Positions 1 through 58,728 of a stretch of 64,000 nt of DNA are shown in pieces. The DNA comes from Daucus carota subsp. sativus (lineage: Eukaryota > Streptophyta > Magnoliopsida > Apiales > Apiaceae), in NCBI RefSeq assembly GCF_001625215.2, contig NC_030385.2, positions 30,653,598 to 30,717,597 on the forward strand, read 5' to 3'. The notes beneath the pieces were generated by a model that ran no database searches, had not been told where the DNA came from, and was given only the letters and a program-made list of their open reading frames with translations. Position numbers and translations under genes: made by a program. Every line of letters starts with the position of its first letter. Positions within the stretch are counted from its first letter, which is position 1.

Positions 1-1
1 A

Positions 2-178
2 ATTTCAGCCCTCAAACCACAATTACAGAGGTGGTTGGTTGATGCAACGAGAGAGCTTGAAGACAATGATATCATCGAAATAATAACAAAACAAAACAAA
101 CAAAAATTTTCAACCTGCACTCATTCTACTCTACAAAGTTTCTCACTTTATAGAATACCTTCACATGATCAACAGTAA
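2..178 (+). CDS. Possible 3' end of a gene entering from the left edge
   Basis: Reading frame 2 is open from the window edge to a TAA at 176-178. Its first ~30 codons read like a charged helical segment (ALKPQLQRWLVDATRELED); the rest is low quality. The start lies outside the window. It could be the tail of another member of the small-gene cluster, but frame 3 is also open for some distance and the end overlaps a promoter-like motif, TTCACATGATCAACAGTA. I do not recognise the protein. Confidence 0.2.
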   Translation: MSALKPQLQRWLVDATRELEDNDIIEIITKQNKQKFSTCTHSTLQSFSLYRIPSHDQQ

Positions 179-262
179 AGATTGGACCCACTTTTTCATA
201 CTGCCACTCTATAGATTAGACTACACACTGCCAAATCATAGCATGCAATTAAATTTAAAATT

Positions 263-361
263 TATATGTTTATCATGTTATTTTAAATCATTTTATTATG
301 TATATATAAATTTGTAAAAATAATTAATGAAATGAAATGAAATAATATATAAAAATTAATA
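263..361 (+). repeat. Left arm of ~100-bp inverted repeat
   Basis: This AT-rich segment is the reverse complement of 6087-6190 with only a few substitutions and one 5-bp indel, including the blocks ATTTCATTTCATTTCATTAAT and AATGATTTAAAATAACATG. The two arms bracket the six-gene cluster. No target-site duplication could be identified, so these may be termini of one element or two inverted copies of an AT-rich MITE. Confidence 0.75.
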
Positions 362-510
362 ATGGTACATTTCAAGTTTCATTATGTATTAACAAAATTA
401 TATATATGTAATGTTATATAATAATATGTGGTGAGAAAACAAGGCGAGGTCCGGTTGCTAAATGGTTGGCCTAAGTTCGCAACATTTTACTCTCTCTGTC
501 TCTCTCTCTT

Positions 511-545
511 TTGCACCGGGTCCAATCAAATCATTTATCTACTGT
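511..545 (-). pseudogene. Remnant of an acidic-tail family gene (internal deletion)
   Basis: The segment TTTGCACCGGGTCCAATCAAATCATTT matches, in the same orientation, codons inside the minus-strand gene at 1445-1903 (near 1735-1770). It then jumps straight to sequence matching 1979 onward, the promoter side of that gene. The copy has therefore lost most of its coding region. It shows that a minus-strand gene of this family once lay divergently upstream of the gene at 870. Confidence 0.6.
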
Positions 546-548
546 ACC

Positions 549-836
549 CATGTGAACAAGTTGAGGAGGAAGGCAGAGATTCCTTTACTTTAACCATGAA
601 AAGTAAATAGCATTTGTCAGGGGTGCAGAGATACGAAGACTGTAGCCATGTGAATTGTTTTTTGCTTTTGCAATGATAATATGCTGCATATATATTCGGA
701 CACTGTAGCCATGTGACCTGTTTTATGCTTTTGCAATGAAAATAAACTGCATATATATTCGTTCACTGTAGCCATGTGACCTGTTTTATGTCAATAAGTG
801 TACTGAATTAACCACACACACACACACACACACACA
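549..836. repeat. Partial copy of 63-bp tandem repeat block plus (AC)n tract
   Basis: The core GTAGCCATGTGAA/ACC recurs with CATGTG at 549, 648, 710 and 773, so the last three are spaced 62-63 bp. The sequence is a near-copy of 1983-2230. It ends in an (AC)n run at about 813-836, just before the gene at 870, and is the probable promoter region of that gene. Confidence 0.7.
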
Positions 837-869
837 AATTTCACATCGGCCAAGACAACAAAGCTGTAA

Positions 870-1265
870 ATGGGGAAGCATAAACGATCGAGAAAAGAAG
901 ACGAGGGGATAGAAGATTGGGGTTCTGAAGAAATGAAAGGCGAGGTTTCAATTGCTGCGGAAAAGGTTTCGAGAAAGATGAAGTTTGTTGCGGAGATGCA
1001 GTTGTTGCATTATCGAGAAGCAAGAAAGGGCAGGCATTGGGTGCCGACTAAGGAAGAAACTCGCACTGAAGTAATCTATGGAGTAGGCAATCCGTTACGA
1101 GAATATCACTACAGAAAAGATAGAGATATAAATAATTCTTTCTTCAGAGGACAGATCACGGACGAGCAAAGGATAGCCTTGTTGGAAGAAAACTGGTTAG
1201 AGTATGATGTAAAAGTCAAAGATATTGAGAAATCGAATTTTGACGAGTATGCAAAGCATCAGTGA
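870..1265 (+). CDS. Small basic protein, unnamed family A (copy 1)
   Basis: Intronless ORF of 131 residues; function not recognised. The N terminus (MGKHKRSRKEDE) is lysine/arginine rich and could act as a nuclear localisation signal (inference). Residues ~50-64 carry GRHWVPTKEE, which aligns with GKDWVMTEAE in the 247-residue protein at 5135-5878. Flanking helical segments also align (LREYHYRKDRDI with VHKLYFQRHREM), so the two are probable paralogues; this copy lacks the long Pro/Gln N-terminal part and the acidic tail. It is convergent with the minus gene ending at 1445 and has a copy of the 63-bp repeats upstream. No membrane segment or signal peptide is visible. Single-exon structure and repeat-rich promoter match its five neighbours. 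It could be a rapidly evolving, lineage-specific gene. Confidence 0.6.
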   Translation: MGKHKRSRKEDEGIEDWGSEEMKGEVSIAAEKVSRKMKFVAEMQLLHYREARKGRHWVPTKEETRTEVIYGVGNPLREYHYRKDRDINNSFFRGQITDEQRIALLEENWLEYDVKVKDIEKSNFDEYAKHQ

Positions 1266-1444
1266 TGGATTTTATTTAGCTTATGATGAATTCTGTCATA
1301 TGTTAGATGTGACTAATCCTCAAGTGATTGTATTACTATGTTTATGGTCTTTGTAATTGCAATTTCATTGAAATAAAAATAAAAAGAGTACAAACACCTT
1401 GATTTTGAAGAAGTACAAACAAACCCTAAGCAATGTCATATTTA

Positions 1445-1903
1445 TTAATCAGGATCATCGTCATCAGTTGGCTCTTCATCGGACATATCGTAATCGGAAA
1501 TGTAATTTGGGTTTTGAAGAAGTGAACATTCTTCTTCGAAAGACATATCCCTACCACTAGCATTTGCTGAATCTTGAGCCAACTTAATCATGTAGAAACG
1601 ACAACGACGCATCAACATTCTATTGTTCTCTTCCCTTATTAGTTCCACAGCTTCAATGACCAAACGACGATAATCACCCCAACTACCGTTAAAGTTACGA
1701 GCCGGATAAACGCCTAAAGACTCGCGGATGGGGAGCTTTGCACCGAGTCCAATCAAATCATTTCTCAACTGATCGGATTCCTCAAGACGGAATGCCCACT
1801 CGCGCCTCACTCCAGCAAAATACTCTTTGGGATCAGTGTATTTCAAGCTATAGTAGTCGTCATTCATTTGTTTAAGCAACCATTTTCTACTGGGTGAGTA
1901 CAT
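1445..1903 (-). CDS. Acidic-tail protein, unnamed family C (copy 1)
   Basis: Intronless, 152 residues from the ATG at 1903. An upstream in-frame ATG at 1993 lies in repeat sequence and would add a poorly conserved leader, so 1903 is preferred. No known domain recognised. The protein aligns with the minus-strand gene at 3855-4283 in four places: RKW near the N terminus, YSL followed by a TDP/SPE turn, EWxxRxLE, and a helix with REENNRM (REEENRM in the other). Both end in an acidic tail, here NPNYISDYDMSDEE followed by more Asp. A TATA-like TCTATATG lies about 60 bp upstream. It is divergent from the GRF zinc-finger gene at 2866, with the 63-bp tandem repeats between. Helical, charged, soluble and probably intracellular. 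Confidence 0.65.
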   Translation of the reverse strand: MYSPSRKWLLKQMNDDYYSLKYTDPKEYFAGVRREWAFRLEESDQLRNDLIGLGAKLPIRESLGVYPARNFNGSWGDYRRLVIEAVELIREENNRMLMRRCRFYMIKLAQDSANASGRDMSFEEECSLLQNPNYISDYDMSDEEPTDDDDPD

Positions 1904-1978
1904 TTTATGAGAAGATGATTTAAGTTTGAAGCTGCGAGTGTACAAGCTTTCAAAAAATAGGATTACATATAGACTAAT

Positions 1979-2805
1979 ATCTACTGTACCCATGTGAACA
2001 AGTTGAGGAGGAAGGCAGAGATTCCTTTACTTTAACCATGAAAAGTAAATAGCATTTGTCAGGGGTGCAGAGATACGAAGACTGTAGCCATGTGAATTGT
2101 TTTTGGCTTTTGCAATGATAATATGCTGCATATATATTCGTCCACTGTAGCCATGTGACCTGTTTTATGCTTTTGCAATGAAAATAAGCTGCATATATAT
2201 TCGTTCACTGTAGCCATGTGAACTTTTTTTTTCTTCTGCATTCATAGTATGCTGCATATAAAGTCGTCAACTGTAGGCATGTGAACTTTTTTTGTCTTCT
2301 GCAATGGTAATATGCTGCATATATATTCGTCCACTGTAGGCATGTGAACCTTTTTTGGCTTTTGCAATTATATAATGCTGCATATATATTCGTCCACTGT
2401 AGGCATGTGAACCTTTTTTGGCTTTTGCAATTATATAATGCTGCATATATATTCGTCCACTGTAGGCATGTGAACCTTTTTTGGCTTTTGCAATTATATA
2501 ATGCTGCAAACAGGTTCGTCCATTGTATCCATGTGAACAAGTTGAGGAGGAAGGCAGAGATTCCTTTACTTTAACCATTAAAAGTAAATAGCATTGTCGG
2601 GGGTGCACAAATACGAAGACTGTAGGCATGTGACCTGTTTTTTGTAGCCATGTGAACTTTATGTGGCTTTTGAAATGATAATATGCTGCATACTATTTCG
2701 TCCACTGTAGCCATGTGAACTTTTTTTGGCTTTTGCGATTATAACATGCTGTATACATATAATAATATGCTGCATACAGATACGTCTATTGTAGCCATGT
2801 GGGAA
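1979..2805. repeat. 63-bp tandem repeat array between divergent genes
   Basis: The core GTAG(C/G)CATGTGAA recurs with CATGTG at 2089, 2152, 2215, 2278, 2341, 2404, 2467 and 2530: eight starts exactly 63 bp apart. Further copies begin at 2628, 2649, 2712 and 2795 (steps of 21, 63 and 83 bp). Each unit carries a pyrimidine tract, CTTTTGCAAT and GCTGCATATATATTCGTCCACTGTA. 63 is a multiple of three, so long repetitive ORFs arise on both strands; I do not regard them as genes. The array fills the divergent promoter between the genes at 1903 and 2866. Confidence 0.9.
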
Positions 2806-2814
2806 AATATTGGT

Positions 2815-2822
2815 TATAAATA
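2815..2822 (+). promoter_or_regulatory. TATA box of first GRF gene
   Basis: TATAAATA lies 51 bp upstream of the ATG at 2866, right after the last 63-bp repeat copy. Normal plant TATA-to-ATG spacing for a short leader. Confidence 0.65.
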
Positions 2823-2865
2823 GTGGAAAGCTCGTTTATACATCTCAAAACAAAAACTTAATTAC

Positions 2866-3195
2866 ATGGAGAGAGTAAATGCGGTTATTGAAGGGGATAC
2901 ATGCTACTGTGAAAAGCTTGCTGTTCATAGTACATATCCAGGGACTGGGCCAAACGCTGGAAGAAAGATGTCACGGTGTCCATTCTGGCCGGACGGGTGC
3001 GGTTATATGTTTTGGATTGATGATCCACTTGAACCACGTTCAGCGGCTGTGCTAACTGAGATGACTAAGGAGATGAGTGATCTTATATGGGAGCATTATT
3101 TTACAAAGGAAAAGATTAGAGAGAAGCATGACGAAGAATTTGAACGCCTCAAGGGAAAAAATAAGGGGGAGGGTTCTTCAAGCAGGAAATGCTAG
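2866..3195 (+). CDS. GRF-type zinc-finger small protein (copy 1)
   Basis: 109 residues, intronless. Residues ~13-53 form a GRF zinc finger: CYC, then the GRF-like NAGRKM, then RCPFWPDGCGYMFWIDD. Four metal ligands are visible (CxC, a single C, then GC before the aromatic YMFW). The rest is a short charged helix (EKIREKHDEEFERLKGKNK), probably coiled coil. In other proteins the GRF finger binds single-stranded nucleic acid; small plant proteins with only this finger have no settled role, so function here is inference. The next gene is a clear tandem paralogue. Transcription probably starts from the TATA at 2815, under control of the 63-bp repeats shared with the divergent gene. Confidence 0.85.
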   Translation: MERVNAVIEGDTCYCEKLAVHSTYPGTGPNAGRKMSRCPFWPDGCGYMFWIDDPLEPRSAAVLTEMTKEMSDLIWEHYFTKEKIREKHDEEFERLKGKNKGEGSSSRKC

Positions 3196-3293
3196 ATTCA
3201 CCAATGTGCAATTATTGTTGTTTTCCCTATTTAGTTTAATAAGTTATGTATGGCTACATTAAAGTTGTTGTCACGATGTTCATTATTTTCATC

Positions 3294-3301
3294 TATAAAT
3301 A
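3294..3301 (+). promoter_or_regulatory. TATA box of second GRF gene
   Basis: TATAAATA 52 bp before the second GRF gene's ATG. Almost the same spacing as in the first copy, so the tandem gene carries its own core promoter. Confidence 0.6.
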
Positions 3302-3352
3302 ACTGGCTCCACACCTCACTTGTATCCACAACTAAAAAAAATTTTAAAACTT

Positions 3353-3673
3353 ATGGAGCCTGTTGCTTTAGAGAAGTGCTATTGTGACAAAGTCGTAGTT
3401 AGTAGAGTTTGGCGAGACAACGGTCCCGACGCTGGGAGGCGGATGATGCAATGTCCTGACGGACCCAATGGTTGCGGCTACATATTTTGGCTAGAGGACC
3501 GTCATGAAAGCCGTGCTGCCGAGGTCATTAGCAAGCTTTCAAACGAAATTAGTGACCTGAAATGGTCACAGGCAGTGGAAGTTACAAACATGGAGACTAA
3601 GCATGCTGAGAAACTAAAGAAGATGAAGAAGACCATGAGGGGACATGGATCTAGATGGGATGACGTAAATTGA
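3353..3673 (+). CDS. GRF-type zinc-finger small protein (copy 2)
   Basis: 106 residues from the ATG at 3353; the upstream in-frame extension begins at a TTG and is discarded. The finger (residues ~7-50) reads CYC, DAGRRM, QCPDGPNGCGYIFWLED, with all four Cys ligands and the aromatic box kept. A charged helix follows (NMETKHAEKLKKMKKTM). It matches the upstream copy across the finger but differs in the linker and tail, so the duplication is not very recent. Both start MExV. The gene is convergent with the minus-strand gene at 3855. Probably nucleic-acid binding (family knowledge); partners unknown. Confidence 0.85.
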   Translation: MEPVALEKCYCDKVVVSRVWRDNGPDAGRRMMQCPDGPNGCGYIFWLEDRHESRAAEVISKLSNEISDLKWSQAVEVTNMETKHAEKLKKMKKTMRGHGSRWDDVN

Positions 3674-3854
3674 TGTTATTTCTTATCTTCTTCATGTTTT
3701 ATGTTTGTTGTGTGTTTGTGTTTTCTTTTCGGGTTGTGTGTTTGTTGTGCTTTTGACGAAATACAACAAAGTTTATTAATAAAAGACAATAAAAAACTAG
3801 TAATACAACTTCAACTTCAAAGCAGGAAACAATGATGACGTTTCTACAAACCAA

Positions 3855-4283
3855 TTACTCGTCATCAGACATGTAGCTATCAGAATAGTAATCAGGGCTG
3901 GTGACCAATACAAGGTATTGTTGTTCTTTAAACCAGTCCCCTTCTTCGCGAAACATCCTAGCATCATCGTATAGACTCTGACGCTCCAGTCGCAGATTCA
4001 TGCGATTCTCCTCTTCTCTCGCTCTGAAGAGGGCGGCCTCCATCTCCTGTGGCGTTTCTCGAGGCATGGTACGAGCCCTTTGCTTGGGAATTGAAAGGCC
4101 AGCTAGTGCACAACGTTCCCTGCACACTTCAAGCGTACGCACACGCCACTCCCACTCATGCAACATGGTAGTAATTGACTCAGGGGAGTAACGTAAATTT
4201 GGGTTTAAAGAGTACGTAAACTCTGAATCACACCACCATTTTCTACCCATGGCAACAAACAAATCACCTGGTGTGTAATTCAT
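3855..4283 (-). CDS. Acidic-tail protein, unnamed family C (copy 2)
   Basis: 142 residues, intronless, paralogous to the gene at 1445-1903: GRKWW, YSLNPNLRYSPE, EWEWRVRTLE, a helix with REEENRM and the terminal SPDYYSDSYMSDDE. A second ATG 11 codons in (before GRKWW) is a possible alternative start. Tryptophan-rich N-terminal half, charged helical middle, short acidic C terminus that could be a protein-interaction motif (inference). Upstream on its strand is GCCTATAAATAGG, the same core promoter sequence as the divergent gene at 5135. Function unknown. Confidence 0.65.
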   Translation of the reverse strand: MNYTPGDLFVAMGRKWWCDSEFTYSLNPNLRYSPESITTMLHEWEWRVRTLEVCRERCALAGLSIPKQRARTMPRETPQEMEAALFRAREEENRMNLRLERQSLYDDARMFREEGDWFKEQQYLVLVTSPDYYSDSYMSDDE

Positions 4284-4348
4284 TATTTACACTATATTAT
4301 ATGCGCCCTCTATGGTTGTGTGTGCATTGACAACCTAATATGTGAACC

Positions 4349-4356
4349 TATTTATA
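4349..4356 (-). promoter_or_regulatory. TATA box of acidic-tail gene copy 2
   Basis: On the minus strand the sequence reads GCCTATAAATAGGTTCAC, 66 bp before the ATG. The 13-bp core GCCTATAAATAGG is also found at 5031-5043 on the plus strand for the divergent neighbour. Confidence 0.65.
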
Positions 4357-4424
4357 GGCATATCATTGTGCTACGATAATAATGCAGTTACAATCCAATT
4401 GATCAAATGTACAGAATAATAGCA

Positions 4425-4755
4425 ACTTTCACATGATCATCAGTAGTGAATAGTGCAAATACTCCTGCATGATATAAAGCAAAGCTTGACCACACACTGC
4501 ACAATGAAGAGCTTCACAACACACTGCACAATGAAAAGCTGCATGACATTAGGTAATTTTGACCAGCTTCACAAGACACAAAAAAACAAAGGCTGCATTA
4601 AAAATACATAGGCCACGTTATCATACTACAACTATATAAATACACTACACACTAACAAAATCATAATGCAGAGGTTCACATGATCAACATTACTGTCATA
4701 ATGCAGAGGTTCACATGATCAACAGTAGGTTATTTTGACCAGCTTCACAAGACAC
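4425..4755. repeat. Duplicated motif block in divergent promoter
   Basis: TTCACATGATCAACAGTA-like motifs occur near 4428, 4676 and 4710 (and at 161-178 near the window edge). A segment AGGT(A/T)ATTTTGACCAGCTTCACAAGACAC occurs at 4551 and 4727, about 176 bp apart. ACACACTGCACAATGAA also repeats near 4490-4530. These lie between the divergent genes at 4283 and 5135. The motif resembles the reverse complement of the 63-bp repeat core (GTTCACATGGCTACAGT). Confidence 0.6.
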
Positions 4756-5033
4756 TGCATCCTTCAATAACATATCAAACGACAAGGACTTGTCATATCA
4801 AACTTTAATTATGAGTAGTCTACTCAGCCCTTTAAATTGCAGCTACTGTTCTACTGCATTACAAGTTTGACTGAAAAAGATACAAGAAGTACAGAGACTT
4901 GTCATTTCAAATATTTTAAAGATACAAGGAGTGGGGAGATTTCTAATCAAATGTAATTTTATTTTCACTTTATGTAATGCTTGTGTTTCCTTTAATTTTA
5001 TGCAATGCTTGTGTTTAAAATAATCCATTCGCC

Positions 5034-5041
5034 TATAAATA
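5034..5041 (+). promoter_or_regulatory. TATA box of family A copy 2
   Basis: GCCTATAAATAGGT on the plus strand, 94 bp before the ATG at 5135. Identical core to the divergent gene's TATA region. Confidence 0.65.
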
Positions 5042-5134
5042 GGTCTTCATTATGGTTGATACACATACAAGCAACCAAACAAACACAAAAATCACTCATC
5101 ACTTAAGCTGAAACTGGATAAGGGCAAGGCACCA

Positions 5135-5878
5135 ATGGATAAGGGGAAAGCACCAATGACCCCCGGCTACGAAAAACGCCTCAAACAGCAACAAGATAGG
5201 AGACAACCGGAGCTTGTGTTGGGAGGGATGCGCAACAACCGAAGCAACCAACAACCTAAACCAGCTCCTAAAAGTAAGGCACCACCGGTCGTGCAACAAA
5301 AGCAAACTCGGCCACCGTTGGGACGGATGCGCACTGACTTTGACATCAACAAAATGATAGAGGAGATGAGAGAAGAGAGACGTCTCGAGGCTGAACATCA
5401 ACAGAACGTGAAGAAGTGGAACATTCTTTTCCGTAAAATCTGCAGGTATGTTTATAAGAGAATTAGAAGGGGCAAAGATTGGGTGATGACGGAGGCGGAA
5501 GATGATATCCATAACAGAAAATTCCCTGAAGTTCACAAACTCTATTTTCAACGCCATCGTGAGATGGGTATCCCATTTGGTGATTCTCGCTGGAGGTATT
5601 ATGCGGATAAAATCGATGAAGAGTGCGCCGCACTGCAGGCTAAACTCGAGGGACGTCAGGAAGCCAGATTTTGGGCGGAGTGGGGAGATGTGGACAATGT
5701 AACTTATCAGTGCCGTCGAGTACAAATGCCTACCCCGTGGGCCGATGATGATGTTGACGATGAAGAGGAAGGCGGTGTTGCTGATGATGGTGGAGACGAT
5801 GATGCTCACGCTGAGGACGATGAAGATGATGATGAAGGATATGGTTCCGACTATATTGTGGACATCAGTCAGGATTGA
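5135..5878 (+). CDS. Basic protein with acidic tail, unnamed family A (copy 2)
   Basis: 247 residues, intronless; the ATG follows a plausible TATA and leader. Residues 1-70 are Lys/Gln/Pro rich and probably disordered (PKPAPKSKAPPVVQQKQ). Residues ~75-190 are helical and charged, containing RRGKDWVMTEAEDD and WRYYADKIDEECAALQAKLE, which align with the protein at 870-1265. The last ~45 residues are almost all Asp/Glu/Gly, ending GSDYIVDISQD. A basic head and long acidic tail are common in chromatin or RNA-associated proteins, but no known domain is recognised, so that is only inference. Divergent from the acidic-tail gene at 4283. Confidence 0.65.
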   Translation: MDKGKAPMTPGYEKRLKQQQDRRQPELVLGGMRNNRSNQQPKPAPKSKAPPVVQQKQTRPPLGRMRTDFDINKMIEEMREERRLEAEHQQNVKKWNILFRKICRYVYKRIRRGKDWVMTEAEDDIHNRKFPEVHKLYFQRHREMGIPFGDSRWRYYADKIDEECAALQAKLEGRQEARFWAEWGDVDNVTYQCRRVQMPTPWADDDVDDEEEGGVADDGGDDDAHAEDDEDDDEGYGSDYIVDISQD

Positions 5879-6086
5879 GAACTTATGTCATGTTCTCATT
5901 TTAATCATATGTAATTTTATTTGCAGTTTTTTAATACTGCAAATCGGAATGATATATGCAATTTCTATTTATATTAATCTTTATTTTTAGTTAATTCAAT
6001 CAATTATATTTTATTTTTATATTAATAAAACTTTATCATAATACAATTATAATAAAATTTTTAAATAATATATCAAAAAATATTAA

Positions 6087-6190
6087 TATTAATTTATATA
6101 TATTTTTTCATTTCATTTCATTAATTATATTATTTTTACAAATTTATATACACATAATAAAATGATTTAAAATAACATGATAAACATATA
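6087..6190 (-). repeat. Right arm of ~100-bp inverted repeat
   Basis: Reverse complement of 263-361, about 95% identical by eye, with an extra 5 bp (ATTAT) in the middle. It lies just downstream of the last gene of the cluster. Homology stops at about 6190. Confidence 0.75.
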
Positions 6191-6235
6191 ATAAAATAAT
6201 GCAACAATTTTAAAAAAAAAAAATTAAACAATGGA

Positions 6236-6416
6236 GGTCGCCCTTGCCAGGGGCGACCCCTACTGGGGCAAAGTGAGAGTAAGGGTCGCCCTTGGCAGGG
6301 GCGACCCCTGAAGCCAAAAAAGTTTAGTTTGGGTCGCCCGACTTTAAATGATTTAGGCTGGTTAGTTTTGAAAAGTTGAACGTAGGCTGGTTAGTTTTGA
6401 AAACTTTACGTTCAAG
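6236..6416. repeat. GC-rich palindromic repeats and a 30-bp tandem repeat
   Basis: GGTCGCCC(TTGCCAG)GGGCGACCCCT occurs at 6236-6261 and again, with TTGGCAG as loop, at 6284-6309. Each copy is a perfect 8-bp stem. A third half-site GGGTCGCCCG lies at 6334. Then AGGCTGGTTAGTTTTGAAAA repeats at 6354 and 6384. No coding sequence here; probably part of a transposon or a satellite-like fragment. Confidence 0.6.
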
Positions 6417-7271
6417 CTGGTCATAAATGTAAGGGAGCCACAAACTTTGAACTCCAAACTCACATCCTTTCTTATATTCCTTCAAAGGACATCCATACTT
6501 CCTATAATTATTGTTGCTCCAATAGATTATATGATATCCTTAATTATAATTTTAAAAATTTTATTACAAATATTCATTTTAGAAGAGTTTTTCTTTTATA
6601 TAATTCAAATTATTAAACAAGTTCCTTACAGAACAACAAGGGTAAGTGATAGAAAACTAAACTCTCGAACTATCAATTACAATCTCATTACTAAACAAAA
6701 TAAAAACTAAATAATAATCATTTTATTTTTAAACCACTAACACATTATATATTTAAATTTTTTAATCTCTATTACAATCATATCTCGATTGAGTAATCTA
6801 ACCTATATCAATCATCAGCTGTGGACATTATAGCAGCGCACTTGATATTCACATAAGCACTATGTGTAACCCAATATCGAAAACTAACAATTATACAAAC
6901 TCTTGCAATATTAAACATCGTGTCGTATTTGATGTGAGTTATACTGATCATCCAAAATAATAAGTGTTTTTTCTCAAAATTATCGAGACTCCTAGCAAAT
7001 CACACAAAAACATCAAAACACAAAATACCAACATTTCAAAAATTAACAACCATGATAACAAGATACCTAATAAGAACTCTTCGAAAATGATCATATCTTA
7101 ATTTTATTAAGAAAAAATCTAATAAGAAATAGGATGGAAGAGCAATAATAATTAATCAATGATGATTGAAGAGAGGAGAAGTGATAGCTGGAATCCTAAA
7201 TTTGAAATTCGACTTTCAAAATTGCAAAGCAAACTGTCCCAAAGTCTTTTAAAAGAACAAAAAAAATATAC
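6417..7271. other. AT-rich intergenic DNA, no gene seen
   Basis: Only short spurious frames without family resemblance; no RNA gene or clear element found. Confidence 0.5.
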
Positions 7272-7274
7272 TTA

Positions 7275-8001
7275 GGGGTCATTTGTTTAGTCTTAACCAT
7301 AATTTCTGAACCAGTGATAATCTGAATCATGAGTGAGTGATGTCATTTGATAAATGTAATTTTTTAAATTTCTGGATGATAATATTTGTTGAAATTTCTT
7401 TTTTTTATATATACTTAATGATATAGAATTGTTCTAAAAAAAATACTCCCTCCGTCCCACCAGATTCTTTACAGTTTCCTTATTTGGCCGTCCCACCCAT
7501 TTCTTTACATTACAAAACTTTCCTAAAATAGTTAATGGGTCCCACCACTTTCCCACTTTTTCTTCCTTTTCACACTACTTTTACTCCACTATCTCTCTTT
7601 TATATATTAAAAATCAGTGAGTCTCGCCACTTCACCCACTTTTCTTTCTTTTTTCTACTACTTTATACATATTTCTTAACCTCCGTGCCCAAACCCAATG
7701 TAAAGAATTGGGTGGGACGGAGGGAGTACTATTTACCATTATATAAGAAATACAATTAAAAAATTTCTCAAAGTAATTAATTTCAACAACAATTAAAAAA
7801 TTATAGGATGTAACTATGTTTAATAGAGTATAGAATAGGCTGCTGGACCAAACCCCCTCCATTTCCTCACATCAGTCGTCCAGCTAATTTAATCGAGTCG
7901 TCCAGCTATTTTTTTGTCGTCCAGCAAAAAGAGCAGCGAGCCAGATGATCTGAACAAAAGACGGCTTCATCCTGTTCAGTTCAGCCATTAACAAATGCCC
8001 C
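7275..8001. mobile_element. PIF/Harbinger-like non-autonomous element, with nested Stowaway
   Basis: The termini GGGGTCATTTGTTTA and TAACAAATGCCCC are imperfect inverted repeats flanked by TTA (7272-7274 and 8002-8004), the 3-bp duplication typical of PIF/Harbinger. The right part has three copies of GTCGTCCAGC. A Stowaway MITE occupies 7446-7726. No transposase is encoded. The right TTA also serves as the left duplication of the next element. Confidence 0.6.
7446..7726. mobile_element. Stowaway MITE
   Basis: Perfect terminal inverted repeats CTCCCTCCGTCCCACC / GGTGGGACGGAGGGAG flanked by TA on both sides; 281 bp, non-coding. Stowaway elements are mobilised by Tc1/mariner-type transposases (family knowledge). 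Confidence 0.92.
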
Positions 8002-8855: not shown

Positions 8856-9191
8856 CAGTGTTATAAAAAGCGCATTAAGCGGCCGATTAAGCGGCCGTCT
8901 AAGCGGAATCGCCCCAAAAACGCTTCGATTTTGTATTAAGCGGGTAATTAAGCGTTTTTTGAAATTAAGCGGATTATTAAGCGGATTAAGCGGTCGTTAA
9001 GCGGATTAAGCAGTAATTAAGCGGTCAAAATGATGTTGACTTCATAATTTTTTAATTTTTCAAATAATTTTTAATTATTATATAATTATAATTCTATTAA
9101 AAAGTTAAAAATTATATAACTATAATTCTATTAAAAAGTTAAAAAATATATATTATATTAAAAATTTAAATTCCTACCATAACATAATATT

Positions 9192-9231
<40 letters not shown>

Positions 9232-9370
9232 TTATAACTAAATATTTAATTATATTTAATTAATCCGCTTATTGACCCGCTTAAAATTCCGCTTAAACGT
9301 CCGCTTTACCGCTTAAGCGCTAGAAGGTCCTTGAACCGCTTAGGACCGATTTGCGCTTTTCACAACATTG
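8856..9370. mobile_element. hAT-like non-autonomous element rich in AAGCGG
   Basis: Ends CAGTGTTATAAAAAGCGC and (reverse complement) CAATGTTGTGAAAAGCGC, flanked by the 8-bp duplication ATATCAAG on both sides. Both subterminal regions are packed with TTAAGCGG/CCGCTTAA words; the centre is AT-rich with a (TA)n run at ~9196-9226. 515 bp, no transposase. Confidence 0.85.
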
Positions 9371-10547: not shown

Positions 10548-11045
10548 ATGAAAGCAGTGGCGGATGCACCTCTGACGATGCCAGTACAGAAATCACCATG
10601 GCACTCACCAGTGCCCTACTTGTTCGGAGGCTTGGCAGCCATGTTAGGCCTGATTGCTTTTGCTCTCCTTATTCTGGCTTGCTCTTACTGGAAGCTCTCG
10701 GGATCTCTCGACAGTGGCGAAGCCGACTCCGAAAGAGATCTCGAGGCAGGCGGTGATGACGCCAGTGACAAGAAACCAGCTCCCGTTTATGAAGAAAAGT
10801 TTCTAGTCATAATGGCTGGACAAGAAAAGCCAACCTACTTGGCCACACCCAAGTCCAGCACCAGCCGAACATCATCTTTTGGCAGCACTGCTAGTGATAG
10901 CAACACGAGTTGTAGCAGTGACACGACTTTATCGGCGGAAAAATCGGACGATGAATCGATGGTTCCTGTAAGTTCTTTTGGTCAGGTAGAAATGAGGACC
11001 ATTATGGGGGACCATGAGGCCACGGACCGGGCAGCTTCTAATTGA
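10548..11045 (+). CDS. GLUTAMINE DUMPER (GDU) family protein, copy 1
   Basis: 165 residues, intronless. GDU proteins are small single-pass membrane proteins that raise amino-acid export and bind LOG2-type RING ubiquitin ligases (family knowledge). Visible here: a short Pro-rich N terminus (SPWHSPVPYLFGG), one hydrophobic segment at about 24-47, an acidic stretch (DSGEADSERDLEAGG) and the diagnostic VIMAG motif at 87-91 followed by GQEKPTYLATP. The Ser/Thr-rich C terminus is typical in length and low conservation. The first ~100 residues differ from copy 2 (16302) at only about three positions, while the C termini diverge. Core promoter and leader are shared with copy 2. Confidence 0.95.
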   Translation: MKAVADAPLTMPVQKSPWHSPVPYLFGGLAAMLGLIAFALLILACSYWKLSGSLDSGEADSERDLEAGGDDASDKKPAPVYEEKFLVIMAGQEKPTYLATPKSSTSRTSSFGSTASDSNTSCSSDTTLSAEKSDDESMVPVSSFGQVEMRTIMGDHEATDRAASN

Positions 11046-16301: not shown

Positions 16302-16757
16302 ATGACGGCAGTGGCAAATGCACCCTTGACGATGCCAGTACAGAAATCACCATGGCACTCACCAGTTCCCTACTTGTTCGGAGGCTTGGCAGCCATGTTA
16401 GGCCTAATCGCTTTTGCTCTCCTTATTCTAGCTTGCTCCTACTGGAAGCTCTCGGGATCTCTCGACAGTGGCGAAGCCGACTCCGAAAGAGACCTCGAGG
16501 CAGGCGGTGATGACGCCAAAGACAAGAAACCAGCTCCCGTTTATGAAGAAAAATTTCTAGTGATAATGGCTGGACAAGAAAAACCAACCTACCTGGCCAC
16601 ACCCAAGTCCAGCACCAGCCGAACATCATCTTTTGGCAGCACTACTAGTGAAAGCAACACGAGTACTTGTAGCAGTAACGAGATGTGTTGTACTTTTGTG
16701 GTACAGACGAGTAGTCAAGTATTGAACCGTGATGTCACGGATCGGACGGCTCCTTGA
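16302..16757 (+). CDS. GLUTAMINE DUMPER (GDU) family protein, copy 2
   Basis: 151 residues, intronless. Same plan as copy 1: Pro-rich N terminus, single membrane segment (~24-47), acidic patch and VIMAG (87-91). Differences from copy 1 in the first 100 residues are few (T2, N6, K73). The C terminus diverges after NTSTCSS: copy 1 has an insertion-like Ser/Glu/Asp stretch, while this copy has a shorter CCTFVVQTSS tail. Expected at the plasma membrane, promoting amino-acid efflux (family knowledge). Tandem duplication in direct orientation, ~5.75 kb apart, with transposons between. Confidence 0.95.
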   Translation: MTAVANAPLTMPVQKSPWHSPVPYLFGGLAAMLGLIAFALLILACSYWKLSGSLDSGEADSERDLEAGGDDAKDKKPAPVYEEKFLVIMAGQEKPTYLATPKSSTSRTSSFGSTTSESNTSTCSSNEMCCTFVVQTSSQVLNRDVTDRTAP

Positions 16758-49165: not shown

Positions 49166-49762
49166 CTAGTAAGGCCTCTCTCCCACATAATTACCCACTG
49201 GATCATAATTACAAGTCATAAACACATCTCCACTCTCGCAAACCACCCTAGCACACCCCACTCTTCTTGTTGTTTTCCACACTATCTGCGTATAATGTCC
49301 ACATTCTTGTTCCTCTGCGCAACTGTTTGCCGCGTAATTGTAGTATTTTTCTTCTTCTGCCCACGCTTGAACAGCCTGGGTCGGTTTCCAATCAGAGCCG
49401 CTTCCCCAGAAGATGTTTTCACCAAGTTTGAACTCGAATTCTGGGAAGGAATGTATGAGCTCACAGTCTGCTTGTCTCTGTCCAGCCCACCATTTCGCGT
49501 AGTCCTCTAGCTGAGTGTCATAAGTGAGTGGCCACTCCCATTTGGCTGCCCTCACTATATTGTGAGCAAACAGAAACTGGAATTGTTCCGCGACACAATT
49601 CCAGCATAGCTGCTGTGAGATTTTGTATATGGTATTGTTATCTGATCGTAGAGGTGTGATTTTTGGCGGTGGAGTGGAGGAAGTGTTGACAGACAGGACA
49701 GTGTTGTTTGATGAATGTGTGGAGAGGCACAGAATGATCAGGAGAATAAAAGATGGATTCAT
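49166..49762 (-). CDS. PR-1-like secreted CAP protein, copy 1
   Basis: 198 residues, intronless. Signal peptide at 1-~24 (MNPSFILLIILCLSTHSS), then a ~35-residue linker with PPP. The CAP domain starts near 58 with AHN (His67), followed by ENIFWGSG, CGHYTQIVW, RRVGCARVVC and MTCNYD, and ends PVGNYVGERPY. The CAP His/Glu/Glu/His cavity residues appear kept. The C-terminal PxGNYxGxxPY peptide after CNYD fits the CAPE1 defence peptide pattern (family knowledge; processing here is inference). PR-1 proteins are apoplastic, bind sterols and mark salicylate responses. Same strand as the paralogue at 50989. Confidence 0.93.
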   Translation of the reverse strand: MNPSFILLIILCLSTHSSNNTVLSVNTSSTPPPKITPLRSDNNTIYKISQQLCWNCVAEQFQFLFAHNIVRAAKWEWPLTYDTQLEDYAKWWAGQRQADCELIHSFPEFEFKLGENIFWGSGSDWKPTQAVQAWAEEEKYYNYAANSCAEEQECGHYTQIVWKTTRRVGCARVVCESGDVFMTCNYDPVGNYVGERPY

Positions 49763-50988
49763 TGTTTTAGTGGTGAATTCAACAAGGCTTGGGGAGAAAC
49801 ACAGCCAATTAGTTATGCAGTACTAAAATTATGCACAGGCTGTGATTCATGAGGCATATATTGCTAGTACATGCGACGACAAATTTTGAAAGATATGGTT
49901 GTCATAGAACTGTGGAAAGCAATTGCTTGCATTAGTCAATTTTTGTGGGGTTCCATCTGTGCCCGAACCAGGATTTATACTCTCTGTTTATGTATCATTT
50001 AAGCCATCTTTCACGCGTTTTTTTTAAACAAGAAATTCAGGCAAGGTAATTTCAGAGTTTTAGTTATGTGATCATGAAATATGTATGTGACTACGTGAGC
50101 CTTTAACAAGGACTAATTCTGTTTCACCTCAGCTTATCAATCGAGTTATTTGCTCCAGACTAAAATTTTCTGAAGAAACAAATTGGGAATCCGAATGAAC
50201 AGGAAGTTTAGAAAAGAGTGTAATACAGGTAGGAGGGAATGAATGGAATCTGTTGGCTCATGTGATGTAAACGGCTGAGGCTATGCATTTGTTGAGCCCG
50301 TGAACTGTAATTGTTTGATTCTTCCATTTATTATATCATGCTGTATATGAAATAATCAAGTCTCTGGCTACTAGCATGTTACTGGACATTCTAGAAAACA
50401 TGGAGCACTTATCTTCACAAAAACATGGACAAGTGTCGCTCATTTGGTGGAAATTGCTGATAGAATTAGACACTAGAGGTCATAAGAAAAATACTTGTAA
50501 TTTCACAGAATCACCAAACTTCAACTGGACCATGTTGTAGGCTTGTTGCATTCAATAGTATATCACACCAGAATGCGCGTGTAATTCACTGGAAAGAAGA
50601 ATCTTAAACATGTAACATATGAGACGGATTTAGTAGAGAACCACATATCCGTGAGGATCATGATGGGGATCGAAAGAAACCGTGAGTATCATGAGAACCA
50701 AAATTCAGTAATTCTGTTGCATAATGATCCTGCAAATTTTGTTTAGAACTTTTATAATAATGCAAAATGCCTTAGTTGATTTGGGGATGTATCACGTTTA
50801 TCAACTTTATTTTTTTCCATTCAAACCTCAGAAGGTGAAAAAGTGAATTACTTTCTCCTTTTTTTACAGCTCCAAGACTCCATTCAAATGAACTGCTAAG
50901 TTAGTTCCACATTTTCAGAGAAAAAAAATTCCAAAGAAGAAAGTTAAAGAAATACAAAAATGTCGAATTGAATACTACTGTATAAAAA
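49763..50988. other. Intergenic region between the PR-1 genes
   Basis: Promoter of the copy to its left and 3' flank of the copy to its right. No further gene, repeat or named cis element recognised. Confidence 0.4.
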
Positions 50989-51489
50989 TCAGTAAGGCTT
51001 CTCCCCAATATAATTGCCAGGAGGATCATAATTGCAAGTCATAAACACACCTCTGCCACCAAAACAATTTACTCTAGCACAACCAACTCTTCTCGTTTGC
51101 CTCCACACAATCTGTGTATAATGCCCACACTCCTCCCCTCCACCGCAAGAATTTGACCAGTAGTTGTACCACTTCTTTTCCCCCACCCATGCAGCTGCGG
51201 CCTGAACAGGGCTCCACTTGTTTCCGCTCCCCCAAAATATGTTCTCTCCATAATCCCCGTTAGAGTGCTTCAACGCACAGTCCCACCGCCTCTGGTTAGC
51301 GTACCATTGAGCATAGCGCGCAAGTTTGGCATCCCATACAAGTGGACGCATTCTCAATGCAGACCTTGCTGCATTTTGTGGTGCCAGAAATTGGCTTATC
51401 ACCGAGTTCAGGTTCTTGGCATCGGAAGAAGTGGCTGAGACAATGAGGAGGAAGACAAGTAAATTGAGGATTATACTTGGGGGACTCAT
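50989..51489 (-). CDS. PR-1-like secreted CAP protein, copy 2
   Basis: 166 residues, intronless, the usual PR-1 length. Signal peptide 1-~23 (LNLLVFLLIVSATSSDA). The CAP domain has YAQWYANQRRWDC, LKHSNGDYGENIFWGSG, CGHYTQIVW (His123), RRVGCARVNC and MTCNYD, and ends PPGNYIGEKPY. It contains six or more Cys for the three disulfides. Oddity: the first cavity histidine, normally in (A/P)HNxAR, is glutamine here (APQNAAR, Gln38), while its neighbour keeps AHN. Expected apoplastic and defence-linked (family knowledge). The C-terminal CAPE-like peptide is retained. Confidence 0.94.
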   Translation of the reverse strand: MSPPSIILNLLVFLLIVSATSSDAKNLNSVISQFLAPQNAARSALRMRPLVWDAKLARYAQWYANQRRWDCALKHSNGDYGENIFWGSGNKWSPVQAAAAWVGEKKWYNYWSNSCGGGEECGHYTQIVWRQTRRVGCARVNCFGGRGVFMTCNYDPPGNYIGEKPY

Positions 51490-56102: not shown

Positions 56103-56523
56103 TACCATATATCGCCAAATAAATATTCTTTTAAAAAGTGAAAGATATAGACTTATCAACCAAATAAACGTCTGATCATTCTCCGCAAAATACGAAGGAA
56201 ACATAAATCCCGTAAATCAAAGTGAAAATCTCCCATATAAGAACTCTCCACACATGCTACAGCCTACACAGCAAAAACCCTAATTCCTAGTTCCTCATCA
56301 AAGGTGACTAGTGAGTTCTAACTTCTAATATTGTTCCAGGTTTGTGATCATATTTTTATTACTCTTATTAATTGTTCTATTGTTATAATTGCTTGCCATG
56401 CATGCAGTTGTGGATCATGATCTGTATTATATGTACCATGACCTCCCGTCGTTAGTTTTGATCTGTATTATTCTGTCTGCAGAAGTTTAATAATTATTTT
56501 CTATATATGTAGATTCTATTCAA

Positions 56524-56946
56524 ATGGCAGGAAATTATCCACATTACGAAATAGGTTTGATTTACACCGGTCCGCGTCCGACTTATTCTTCCGAGACGGT
56601 CAGAGTTAAGAATGAGAACAAAGAGAGTGGGAGCTACGAGCGCTTCACAGCTAAGAAAAAGACGGTGACTTGTGAGCCCTTTGTTGATAGGTATGGGCGC
56701 GAGGGTTACAAAGATGAGCGCTCGGAATCCACTATCTATAAATTTGGTGATAAAGATGGATACACTGAGGTCACTACCGAGAAGAAGGTGAAACACGTCG
56801 ACTATAACAAAAGCAACTGCAGCAACAACTACAACAACAACAAAGCGAAGAGATCCTACGCAAATTGCGATAAGTATTATAGTTATGATAAGAGCAGCCG
56901 CAACGACTATAAGAGAGTTAAGTGGGACTATCCCGAAAGCGACTAG
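56524..56946 (+). CDS. Hydrophilic Tyr-rich protein, unnamed family, copy 1
   Basis: 140 residues in one coding exon; begins MAGNYP. Function not recognised. The core (~26-100) reads VRVKNENKESGSYERFTAKKKTV, EPFVDRYGREGYKDE, then FGDKDGYTEV and KVKHVDYNKS, shared with the genes at 58171 and 63691. This copy lacks their N-terminal acidic Tyr repeats and has an Asn/Lys/Tyr-rich tail. No signal peptide or membrane segment; likely disordered and cytosolic or nuclear. The leader ACACAGCAAAAACCCTAA at ~56266 matches the leaders of copies 2 and 3. An intron in the 5'UTR (donor near 56304-56310, acceptor TAG ending 56512) is likely in all three. Confidence 0.75.
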   Translation: MAGNYPHYEIGLIYTGPRPTYSSETVRVKNENKESGSYERFTAKKKTVTCEPFVDRYGREGYKDERSESTIYKFGDKDGYTEVTTEKKVKHVDYNKSNCSNNYNNNKAKRSYANCDKYYSYDKSSRNDYKRVKWDYPESD

Positions 56947-58170
56947 TAGTTTGTTCTGCATGTTGATGACCTCTGCAGTGAGGGGTTTTGTTTTAATGTT
57001 ATTTTTAATTTTAGTTTCTTGCTTTGGTAATCTGCTACGAGGAACTATATCAAGTTTGTTAGTGGTTTAAATTGTTGATCAAAGATAGTTTTTGCTTTAT
57101 TTAAACTTGAGCGGAATGCAAGTGCGAAACTTTAAATTCATGTGCGATTCATTAATCAGAGATGTGCTATAGCATTAAAAGAGTAATGCATCTTCTCCGA
57201 TTTTGTGAATCCATTATTATTAACGTCAGTGTAACTAATCAAAAATTATCTAATAATATTTGATTAAAAAATTTTGAATATAACTTTTGGGTTCTATGTC
57301 ATTTTCCATTTTTAATTAATACAACCATTCACAGAAAAAAAAGATACAACTGTCCAGTCAAGTTTAAGCAAAATGAATCTTATAAATGCGAAAATCTGAC
57401 AATTAATTACGTATGGAGCTCCATTACTGTTCTTCAAATCTTTTGGTAAACAAATTAGGGAAAACAGTGTTTTGGCTAGGATTTTGTGTCCCATGAAGCA
57501 TTATTAACTGTCTTTCATTTATCGTGGTCCGTGGATATAGCGTAGTGCAGATGACAGGTTGTTTGTATAATGTTATCGTGGCTGATAATGATATGCCTTA
57601 AAAAACGGTCATGTATAGCCATTTAACTGTATACAAAGTTGTGCACGATTATCCCATATCAACTCATATCCTATCCTATATAAATAATTCATATACCTTC
57701 ATTTCACAGCAAAAGCCCTCGCTCTGAGCTTTGTCAAAAGGTGAGTTTTATTTTTTCAAGTAAATGTAAAACCATGATTTTACGATTTTTTCATTGTTCT
57801 TGTAGTCTTTTAACCTTGATGCCTTGCAATTTTGGGTAAGTGTACAAAATGGTCATACCCTGTTCTGTTGTGTTTATTTGAGTGTACTAATGTTATAGCC
57901 GATAATCATGTTCTGCCATACAGTAATGCTAACGGTGATAATATATGTATCCGATTTCTACCTGTTTAATTAAGCTTAAATATATCCTATACGTTGTTAG
58001 CTTCACATATAGTTATTCTTCGTGTGCATCGTGATTGTGATTGTTCTTAAGATGAATTGATTAGTAACTGTTTAATTGTTCTAGTTACTACATTAACATG
58101 TTCTGTTTCTGATATCCATGTCAGAGAAGTCTAATATAATTAACTGGTGTGCACATAGATTATATCGAAC
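56947..58170. other. Spacer with promoter and 5'UTR intron of copy 2
   Basis: TATATAAATA at 57677-57686, the leader TTTCACAGCAAAAGCCCTCGC at ~57703, a donor GTGAGT at 57741 and an acceptor CACATAG ending at 58159 define a likely ~420-bp 5'UTR intron. No other gene seen. Confidence 0.5.
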
Positions 58171-58728
58171 ATGGCAGGACAATATTCAGATGACGAATCT
58201 TACGATGACTATAGTAACACTTACTCCGAGTCCACCCGAGAGTATTCAGATGACGAATCTTATGGTGACCGTGGTATCAGTTATTCAAAGTCCTACACGC
58301 CAGAATATTCAGACGACGAATCTTATGACAACTACGTCGAATCCAAGGCTAACAGCGGAGAATACTCAGATGATGATTCGTATGCTCTTGGTGACTACGG
58401 CACCACCTACTCAGGATCCAAGGCTGGAAGTCAGGTGAGTGTGCATCAAGACACGTACCGAGTAAGAAATGAGCACAAACAGAGCGGGAGCTATGAGCGC
58501 TTCACTGCGAAAGACAAGACGGTGCGTGGCGAACCCTTTGTGGATAGGTATGGTAACCGTGGTTACAAGAATGAGCACACCACGACTTCAAATTACAAAG
58601 TCGGGGATAAACGGGGCTATACTGAGTACCAGCGAGAGGACAAGGTGAAGCATGTTGATTTTAACAAAAGCAGCTATAGCAACAACAACAAAGCTGTGAG
58701 GTCCTACTCAAAATATCGCAAGTATTAG
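58171..58728 (+). CDS. Hydrophilic repeat protein, unnamed family, copy 2
   Basis: 185 residues. N-terminal half: four imperfect repeats of (Q/E)YSDDESYxD at about 4-12, 24-32, 46-54 and 64-72, each followed by a Ser/Tyr-rich spacer. C-terminal half: the family core YRVRNEHKQSGSYERFTAK, GEPFVDRYGNRGYKNE, YKVGDKRGY and KVKHVDFNKS, then a basic Asn/Lys/Tyr tail. Highly hydrophilic, tyrosine rich and charge-segregated (acidic front, basic back), a composition typical of disordered proteins. The SDDES boxes are good casein kinase 2-type sites (inference). I know no function for the family. Confidence 0.8.
   Translation: MAGQYSDDESYDDYSNTYSESTREYSDDESYGDRGISYSKSYTPEYSDDESYDNYVESKANSGEYSDDDSYALGDYGTTYSGSKAGSQVSVHQDTYRVRNEHKQSGSYERFTAKDKTVRGEPFVDRYGNRGYKNEHTTTSNYKVGDKRGYTEYQREDKVKHVDFNKSSYSNNNKAVRSYSKYRKY

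Follow-up and report, generated by a model that had tools for sequence, protein, structure and literature searches.

A carrot Mutator-like transposon with long terminal inverted repeats carries three families of small accessory genes, among them GRF zinc-finger genes

Mutator-like elements (MULEs) are moved by a transposase that acts on their terminal inverted repeats (TIRs); movement is by cut and paste and leaves target-site duplications (TSDs) of 9-10 bp. Several of these elements carry additional open reading frames (ORFs), and mudrB, mutB, vanB, vanC, plant-mobile-domain (PMD) and Ulp1 genes are named in the retrieved portions of PMC6446971 and PMC13317346, while the cited MULE papers describe, in the parts retrieved, one or two extra genes per element. 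In Hiun (VANDAL21) of Arabidopsis, according to the retrieved sections of PMC5735166 and PMC10398659, the VANC protein binds a short, tandemly amplified motif and methylation is lost; VANC motifs are also reported upstream of VANA (PMC5735166, same sections). Here we describe an element from a 64,000-nucleotide stretch of the carrot genome (Daucus carota subsp. sativus; NC_030385.2, positions 30,653,598 to 30,717,597, that is contig C5:30653598-30717597; hereafter the window). Window positions 1-6439 (plus strand) belong to a 12,193-bp MULE (C5:30647844-30660036), of which they form the right half. Besides the transposase, its family carries up to eight small genes (A1-A3, C1-C2, G1-G2 and a GRF-like gene), and several of these are arranged as divergent pairs.

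The assembly from which the window comes (441 Mb, 11 contigs) was used for all genome searches. The left half of the element lies left of the window and contains the left TIR (C5:30647844-30648064), the transposase gene, A3 and exon 2 of the GRF-like gene. In the 10 kb fetched from that side (L076), the left TIR starts at position 4245 and matches window 6439-6217 in inverted orientation. The right TIR (window 6217-6439, minus strand) has a GGCTCCC terminus when read inward and is 80.6% identical over 227 bp to L076:4244-4465. A perfect 9-bp duplication, ACAAACTTT, stands on both sides of the element, at C5:30647835-30647843 and at window 6440-6448. A second family is represented by a 14,853-bp element on contig C8, assembled from three fetched stretches, with TIRs that are 76% identical over 197 bp and a 9-bp duplication, TTCATAAAT, on both sides; its TIRs are homologous to the right TIR of the window, and both elements start with GGCTCC.

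The genome search with the right TIR gave 63 matches among the best 40 of 253 candidates scored. Ten further elements were paired by their TIRs: eight have a perfect 10-bp TSD, one matches at 9 of 10 bases and one has none, while all 132 mismatched left-right flank pairings, compared at 9 or 10 bp as a control, show at least four mismatches. For the element at C9:33164722 the terminal bases differ, and its right end was set by hand at the flank. Long TIRs, a TSD within 8-11 bp and a MULE transposase domain were thus all found, and the TIRs and TSDs of the window, C8 and paired elements define a TIR-type Mutator-like DNA transposon with dozens of dispersed copies. Membership of the Pack-MULEs, which hold captured gene pieces and no transposase, was ruled out by the transposase gene between the TIRs. 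The original prediction, made from the letters of the window, had proposed a mobile or amplifying cassette bounded by two inverted arms, possibly with an 8-11 bp duplication beside them; the genes do lie in a mobile, amplified unit and a duplication is present, but both the end of the unit and the duplication are at the TIRs and not at the arms.

Two copies have an irregular structure. The one at C6:7084684-7089568 has the TIRs of the family and a transposase match inside an open frame of 1010 residues, but its flanks are perfectly inverted (TCCGACTGCA and TGCAGTCGGA) with no direct duplication, and it could represent one element end duplicated in inverted orientation. The large copy at C8:7814168-7842962 is rearranged or nested: its end at 7814168 is of the right type, its arms stand in inverse order with 24.6 kb between them, part of a transposase lies beyond the arms, and G2 and C2 each contain one internal stop.

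The transposase gene of the window element is located just left of the window, between the TIRs. Pfam domains were read on the C8 copy, which is 78% identical to the window transposase over 489 residues, and comprise PF10551 (MULE, E-value 2.1e-19), PF03108 (DBD_Tnp_Mut, 1e-9) and PF04434 (SWIM, 4.9e-4). In the window element this region is divided between two overlapping frames (L076 5047-5532 and 5472-6524), whereas a sister copy on contig C1 has a single frame through that stretch, though it is broken elsewhere. Given this interruption, the window copy is probably non-autonomous and moved only with the help of intact copies. Copies with long open transposase frames exist, since in a copy on contig C5 the transposase lies inside an open frame of 1028 residues.

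The carrot element shares long TIRs, 9-10 bp duplications, a MULE transposase with a SWIM finger and extra ORFs with the MUDR-type TIR-MULEs, such as maize MuDR with mudrA and mudrB. It is set apart from them, by description and not by phylogeny, in having seven or eight accessory genes of three families where MUDR has one mudrB. The C8 copy also has an antisense PMD ORF, as listed for most MUDR-group elements in the retrieved portion of PMC6446971. The same portion lists SWIM plus CCHC for the VANDAL group, and CCHC for other groups too; a CCHC-like end was read by eye in the C8 transposase. TIRs are absent or short and degenerate in the founding VANDALs and about 220 bp long in carrot, and a range of 46-174 bp is given for the wider VANDAL group (PMC6446971, same portion). 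As a comparison of features and not of trees, the PMD ORF and the TIR length recall MUDR, and the CCHC-like end recalls VANDAL.

Kaonashi MULEs likewise have a conserved captured extra gene, according to the retrieved part of PMC13317346, but theirs is Ulp1, while the carrot genes encode GRF fingers and two unnamed families; when the six window ORFs and nine ORFs of the C8 element were scanned with Pfam, no Ulp1 domain was detected. Pack-MULEs also hold non-transposase genes between MULE TIRs, and the carrot family differs from them in its own transposase and its conserved cargo. A literature search covering GRF fingers with transposons, MULEs or gene clusters, and MULE accessory genes or anti-silencing, returned no description of such an element, although repeat databases and other plant genomes were outside its scope and the family may be catalogued there. 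No paper found by this search had a MULE with GRF fingers in a set of seven or eight accessory genes of three families.

Six ORFs (131, 182, 109, 106, 142 and 247 aa) were found in the window part of the element, in the predicted order and on the predicted strands (A1+ C1- G1+ G2+ C2- A2+). A1 (870-1265, plus strand, 131 aa) has 63% amino acid identity to its C8 copy. C1 had been predicted to start at 1993, but an alternative start at 1903 (MYSPSRKW) allows alignment to both C2 and the C8 copy, and is most likely the translation start, giving a protein of 152 aa (1445-1903, minus strand, 73% identical to the C8 copy). G1 (2866-3195, plus strand, 109 aa) and G2 (3353-3673, plus strand, 106 aa) contain a GRF zinc finger (PF06839, E-values 2.8e-6 and 4.9e-6, respectively); the C8 counterpart of G1 scored below the cut-off. 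C2 (3855-4283, minus strand, 142 aa) is 89% identical to its C8 copy. A2 (5135-5878, plus strand, 247 aa) has a long acidic tail, so that such a tail does not serve as the proposed mark of the C family.

The division into three families held up, with a blastp match between G1 and G2 (4e-29) and hhalign values of 87% for C1 with C2 and 88%, over only 39 columns, for A1 with A2/A3. A single superfamily of A and C was rejected, as the C1-A2 z-score of 5.0 did not exceed the best shuffle and profile comparisons gave nothing. The summed length of the six longest ATG-initiated ORFs of 262-6191 exceeded that of all 300 Markov shuffles; these six include two ORFs outside the gene set (152 aa antisense to A2, and 120 aa in a motif array), and the test therefore supports the segment and not the individual genes.

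The cluster had also been suspected to continue to the left of 263, and it does. Window 75-1 (minus strand) is part of exon 1 of the GRF-like gene; exon 2 is at L076:9978-9619, and the protein has a hydrophobic segment at its C-terminus. The gene straddles the edge of the window and is probably spliced; its open frames are L001 1358-1128 and 1218-859, and splice and domain were read by eye. Upstream of A1, window 510-787 (plus strand) contains a 35-bp piece matching C1 coding sequence 1737-1771 (91%, at 510-544), joined to a 252-bp copy of the C1 promoter region (1978-2229, 98%), a duplicate that suggests the trace of a lost C gene and of an ancestral divergent unit with a C partner.

The C8 element has the order C2-type(-), A2-type(-), A3(+), transposase in two frames(+), A1(+), C1(-), G1(+), G2(+), a 281-residue ORF(-) and the PMD ORF(-). 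The block A1+ C1- G1+ G2+ is therefore arranged alike in the window and C8 families.

Pfam scans of A1, C1, A2 and A3 gave nothing, and C2 only gave HTH_32 below the cut-off (E-value 0.36). C2 was predicted to be helical (mean pLDDT 71.6), and the prediction for A2 was too poor for use (50.5). When G1, A2 and C2 were compared with solved structures, G1 weakly matched NEIL3 twice (E-values 0.038 and 0.31), C2 had one weak match and A2 none. Two weak matches, both to C2, were the only ones in PHROGs. A viral origin was rejected, as viral contigs yielded no confirmed relative for A2, C2 or G2 (A1, C1 and G1 were not searched); a plasmid search gave no match and a tRNA search found none.

Sets of A, C and G genes were found together elsewhere in the genome, as had been anticipated. 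Genome searches gave at least 149 matches for G2, 60 for C2 and 172 for A2, on contigs C1-C9, and at least 88 for the transposase; these values, like the 63 for the TIR, are matches among the best candidates scored and not totals. Linkage was analysed with 51 G2-type and 45 G1-type of the 149 G matches, 52 of 60 C matches, 62 of 172 A matches, 87 of 88 transposase matches, 17 of 19 arm matches (two antisense duplicates dropped) and 40 of 63 TIR rows (after removal of short secondary rows). Of the 87 transposase matches, 64 had an A, C or G match within 15 kb, and a transposase match was present within 15 kb of 40 of the 52 C2-type and 50 of the 62 A2-type matches, against at most 3 under random placement in each comparison.

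Selection was estimated between the window and C8 families as dN/dS (nonsynonymous to synonymous divergence), using NG86 with a codon bootstrap. The ratio was 0.12 for transposase exon 2 and 0.16 (0.09-0.29) for C1, both rough values because the NG86 dS exceeds 1 in these two genes. It was 0.34 (0.19-0.59) for A1, 0.26 (0.13-0.48) for G1, 0.20 (0.10-0.35) for G2 and 0.27 (0.14-0.53) for C2. Purifying selection on the protein, as read from these sequence comparisons, is clear for A1, C1, G1, G2 and C2. Constraint on A2 appears moderate (0.55 and 0.58 in comparisons with two A2-type genes, with upper bounds of 0.84 and 0.89), and the value for A3 was 0.59, with an interval that includes 1.

Several intergenic regions contain arrays of a short motif, CTGTAGCCATGTGAA. 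Upstream of A1, a 63-bp tandem array carrying it was identified by Tandem Repeats Finder (TRF) at 639-790 (plus strand), and four motif copies are present in 262-869. The divergent C1-G1 interval contains a motif array (1984-2801, plus strand) of 12 copies with up to two mismatches, and TRF placed a 63-bp array at 2081-2538; the corresponding C8 interval has nine copies and a 158-bp tandem array, and the C8 A2-A3 interval has one copy. In the C2-A2 interval there are three copies of TTCACATGATCA(A/T)CA(G/T)T (4428-4726, minus strand), and three similar ones in the C8 element, that is three TTCACATGAT-type copies in each; their core (CATGTGAA) is related to CTGTAGCCATGTGAA in the opposite orientation. 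TATA-like boxes precede the ATG in several of the motif-bearing divergent intervals.

Upstream of G1, at least three motifs were counted in 26 of 30 fetched copies, with two in two copies and none in the remaining two (shuffle mean 0); the number per copy ranges from 0 to 14. The genome contains 36 occurrences of the exact pattern CTGTWGNCATGTGAAC, 31 of these within 2 kb of a listed A, C or G match, and none of its reversed control. Identity between the families was 0.91 in motif columns and 0.38 outside them, a contrast that is biased upward by the choice of units by motif. When units were anchored on CTGTAG alone, the CATGTG after it was intact in all nine window units and in six of the nine C8 units. 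The CTGTAGCCATGTGAA arrays are thus nearly confined to the element, and are conserved between families while the spacers diverge.

Taken jointly, the identity of the element as a TIR-MULE and the service of its accessory genes to the element are very likely. The transposase would act on the TIRs of about 220 bp, and the element would be excised and reinserted, leaving duplications of 9-10 bp. The accessory genes would serve the element. Their GRF, A and C products would most likely make up a module, regulatory or anti-silencing, that acts by way of the motif arrays, and shared divergent promoters would give its genes a common expression. We read the set as an unusually large accessory module, perhaps a regulatory one. 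A more specific proposal, that this is a TIR-MULE distinct from the described VANDALs with a sequence-specific anti-silencing module of its own, in which A, C and/or GRF proteins would recognise arrays of CTGTAGCCATGTGAA and hold the hub of accessory genes open, is tentative and, in our judgement, rather unlikely as it stands. It draws on the likeness to VANDAL/Hiun of Arabidopsis (VANA, VANB, VANC), which is also a MULE with extra proteins and short tandem noncoding motifs (retrieved sections of PMC5735166 and PMC10398659).

A number of observations weigh against a module of this kind. Noncoding tandem motifs are present as in VANC systems, but the transposase flanks of both elements examined (window and C8) contain no CTGTAGCCATGTGAA motif. 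The VANC motif is YAGTATTAY, and fast co-evolution has been described for VANC; in carrot the motif is CTGTAGCCATGTGAA, absent at the transposase, and its core is identical in the two families despite 27-33% protein difference in C1, G1 and G2. Constraint on A2 and A3 is weak, and two of the dN/dS ratios are rough. A transposase match is within 15 kb of only 20 of 51 G2-type matches, A, C and G are all within 15 kb for no more than 12 of the 45 transposase matches listed first, and a 9-kb element on contig C1 lacks A1, C1 and G1 and has only a fragment of G2. This incomplete linkage indicates that the cargo varies and that at least some copies can do without part of it.

The motif-free transposase gene, together with a constant motif beside diverging proteins, favours either a conserved autoregulator or a host factor. 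In the latter case the arrays would be ordinary enhancers for a host transcription factor, and the element proteins would be otherwise employed, for instance in helping the transposase or in repair, an explanation that we regard as a serious competitor although somewhat short of probable. It agrees with the position of the motifs in divergent intervals, a number of which have TATA-like boxes, and with the CATGTG core, which is a known core for plant transcription factors. It is harder to reconcile with a pattern that is almost confined to elements of this family in 441 Mb, and with numbers ranging so widely among copies, as described for targets of proteins encoded by transposable elements.

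The accessory genes could instead be captured host genes that hitchhike as in Pack-MULEs, with no function for the element. The apparently spliced GRF-like gene would fit host-gene capture, and so would the differences in cargo among copies. However, these genes travel with a transposase family that has long open frames, the order A1 C1 G1 G2 is common to two diverged families, and five of the genes appear to be under purifying selection, which together make hitchhiking improbable.

The two inverted arms noted in the original prediction are real. The left arm (262-361, plus strand) matches the reverse complement of the right arm (6087-6191, minus strand) over about 100 bp, with few mismatches and one 5-base gap; the local score of 172 far exceeded the highest value among 2000 shuffled pairs (76), and BLAST identity was 91-92% with the gap counted, slightly below the 95% estimated by eye. 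The left arm is an internal AT-rich repeat and no element end, present at the same internal site in L001 (window), L002, L004 and L006. The right arm is a subterminal repeat about 25 bp inside the right TIR, at the same site in L003, L005, L007 and L008 (window). Copies had been expected to end at the arms; homology between them continues through both arm positions, and the transposase gene lies outside the predicted interval.

Of 17 arm matches, eight are directly inside a terminal repeat (up to 600 bp from a listed TIR) and eight have a listed gene match within 15 kb. Five weaker ones (75-83% identity) are near no listed TIR, while each of the nine with at least 90% identity adjoins a listed terminal repeat or has a listed gene match no more than 15 kb away. 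The arms are thus not a repeat unlinked to the genes, which do occur together elsewhere. An origin of each arm as a separate insertion of a miniature inverted-repeat transposable element (MITE) was rejected, since the flanks match over only 2 and 3 bp.

That the arms stand on either side of the genes is the result of recombination between subfamilies in the window copy. To the left of 5016 this copy is about 97% identical to the elements at C5:12066526, C9:30299837 and C1:20329033, and all these alignments end at 5016; from 5019 onward, identity to the element at C2:48998477 is 99.6% for 939 bp and then 96%, with gaps, to the end. Identity switches between elements at 5016-5019, and on these alignments the copy is best described as a chimera of two MULE subfamilies with a breakpoint near 5017. 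It would be very improbable, on this evidence, that segment 262-6191 is itself mobile, with 100-bp terminal repeats and a 6-bp TAAAAT duplication, or forms a nested unit ending at the arms. The outer ends of the arm homology are sharp, and TAAAAT flanks both (P about 0.006 at the exact boundaries, 0.025 with a one-base slip). However, in L004 the left repeat extends past 262 into sequence that is found after the right arm, so the right TAAAAT is part of the repeat and not a target duplication; moreover, the two arms are found apart in other copies, and the breakpoint implies that they derive from different elements. The remaining alternative, an operon-like host gene cluster near transposons by chance, has only the six ORFs side by side in its favour and is virtually dismissed by the dispersal of copies over contigs C1-C9 inside elements bounded by TIRs and TSDs.

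To the right of the element, the window contains several other features. Inverted CTCCCTCCGTCCCACC-like ends were read by eye at about 7446-7727, presumably the motif of a Stowaway-type MITE. At about 8870-9360, repeats of a TTAAGCGG unit and their inverted counterpart, also read by eye, flank an AT-rich middle, and this is probably another small inverted-repeat element. Two closely similar genes for small membrane proteins (10551-11042 and 16320-16754) had no Pfam match, and we take them to resemble GLUTAMINE DUMPER proteins. A tandem pair of CAP/PR-1-type genes on the minus strand (49166-51489) adjoins a UDP-glycosyltransferase gene, and two related small repetitive proteins without a Pfam match (56494-58728) have GSYERFTAK and GEPFVDRYG-like stretches in common. 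Kinase, CAP and UDP-glycosyltransferase genes are present further right in the window, and such neighbours suggest plant DNA.

A high-copy transposon family in carrot thus keeps three small gene families, each duplicated within the element, with at least five members that appear to be under purifying selection. If their proteins act on the motif arrays, this would be a further plant transposon that counteracts or tunes its own silencing. Some GRF-type plant genes now called uncharacterised may likewise be transposon genes.

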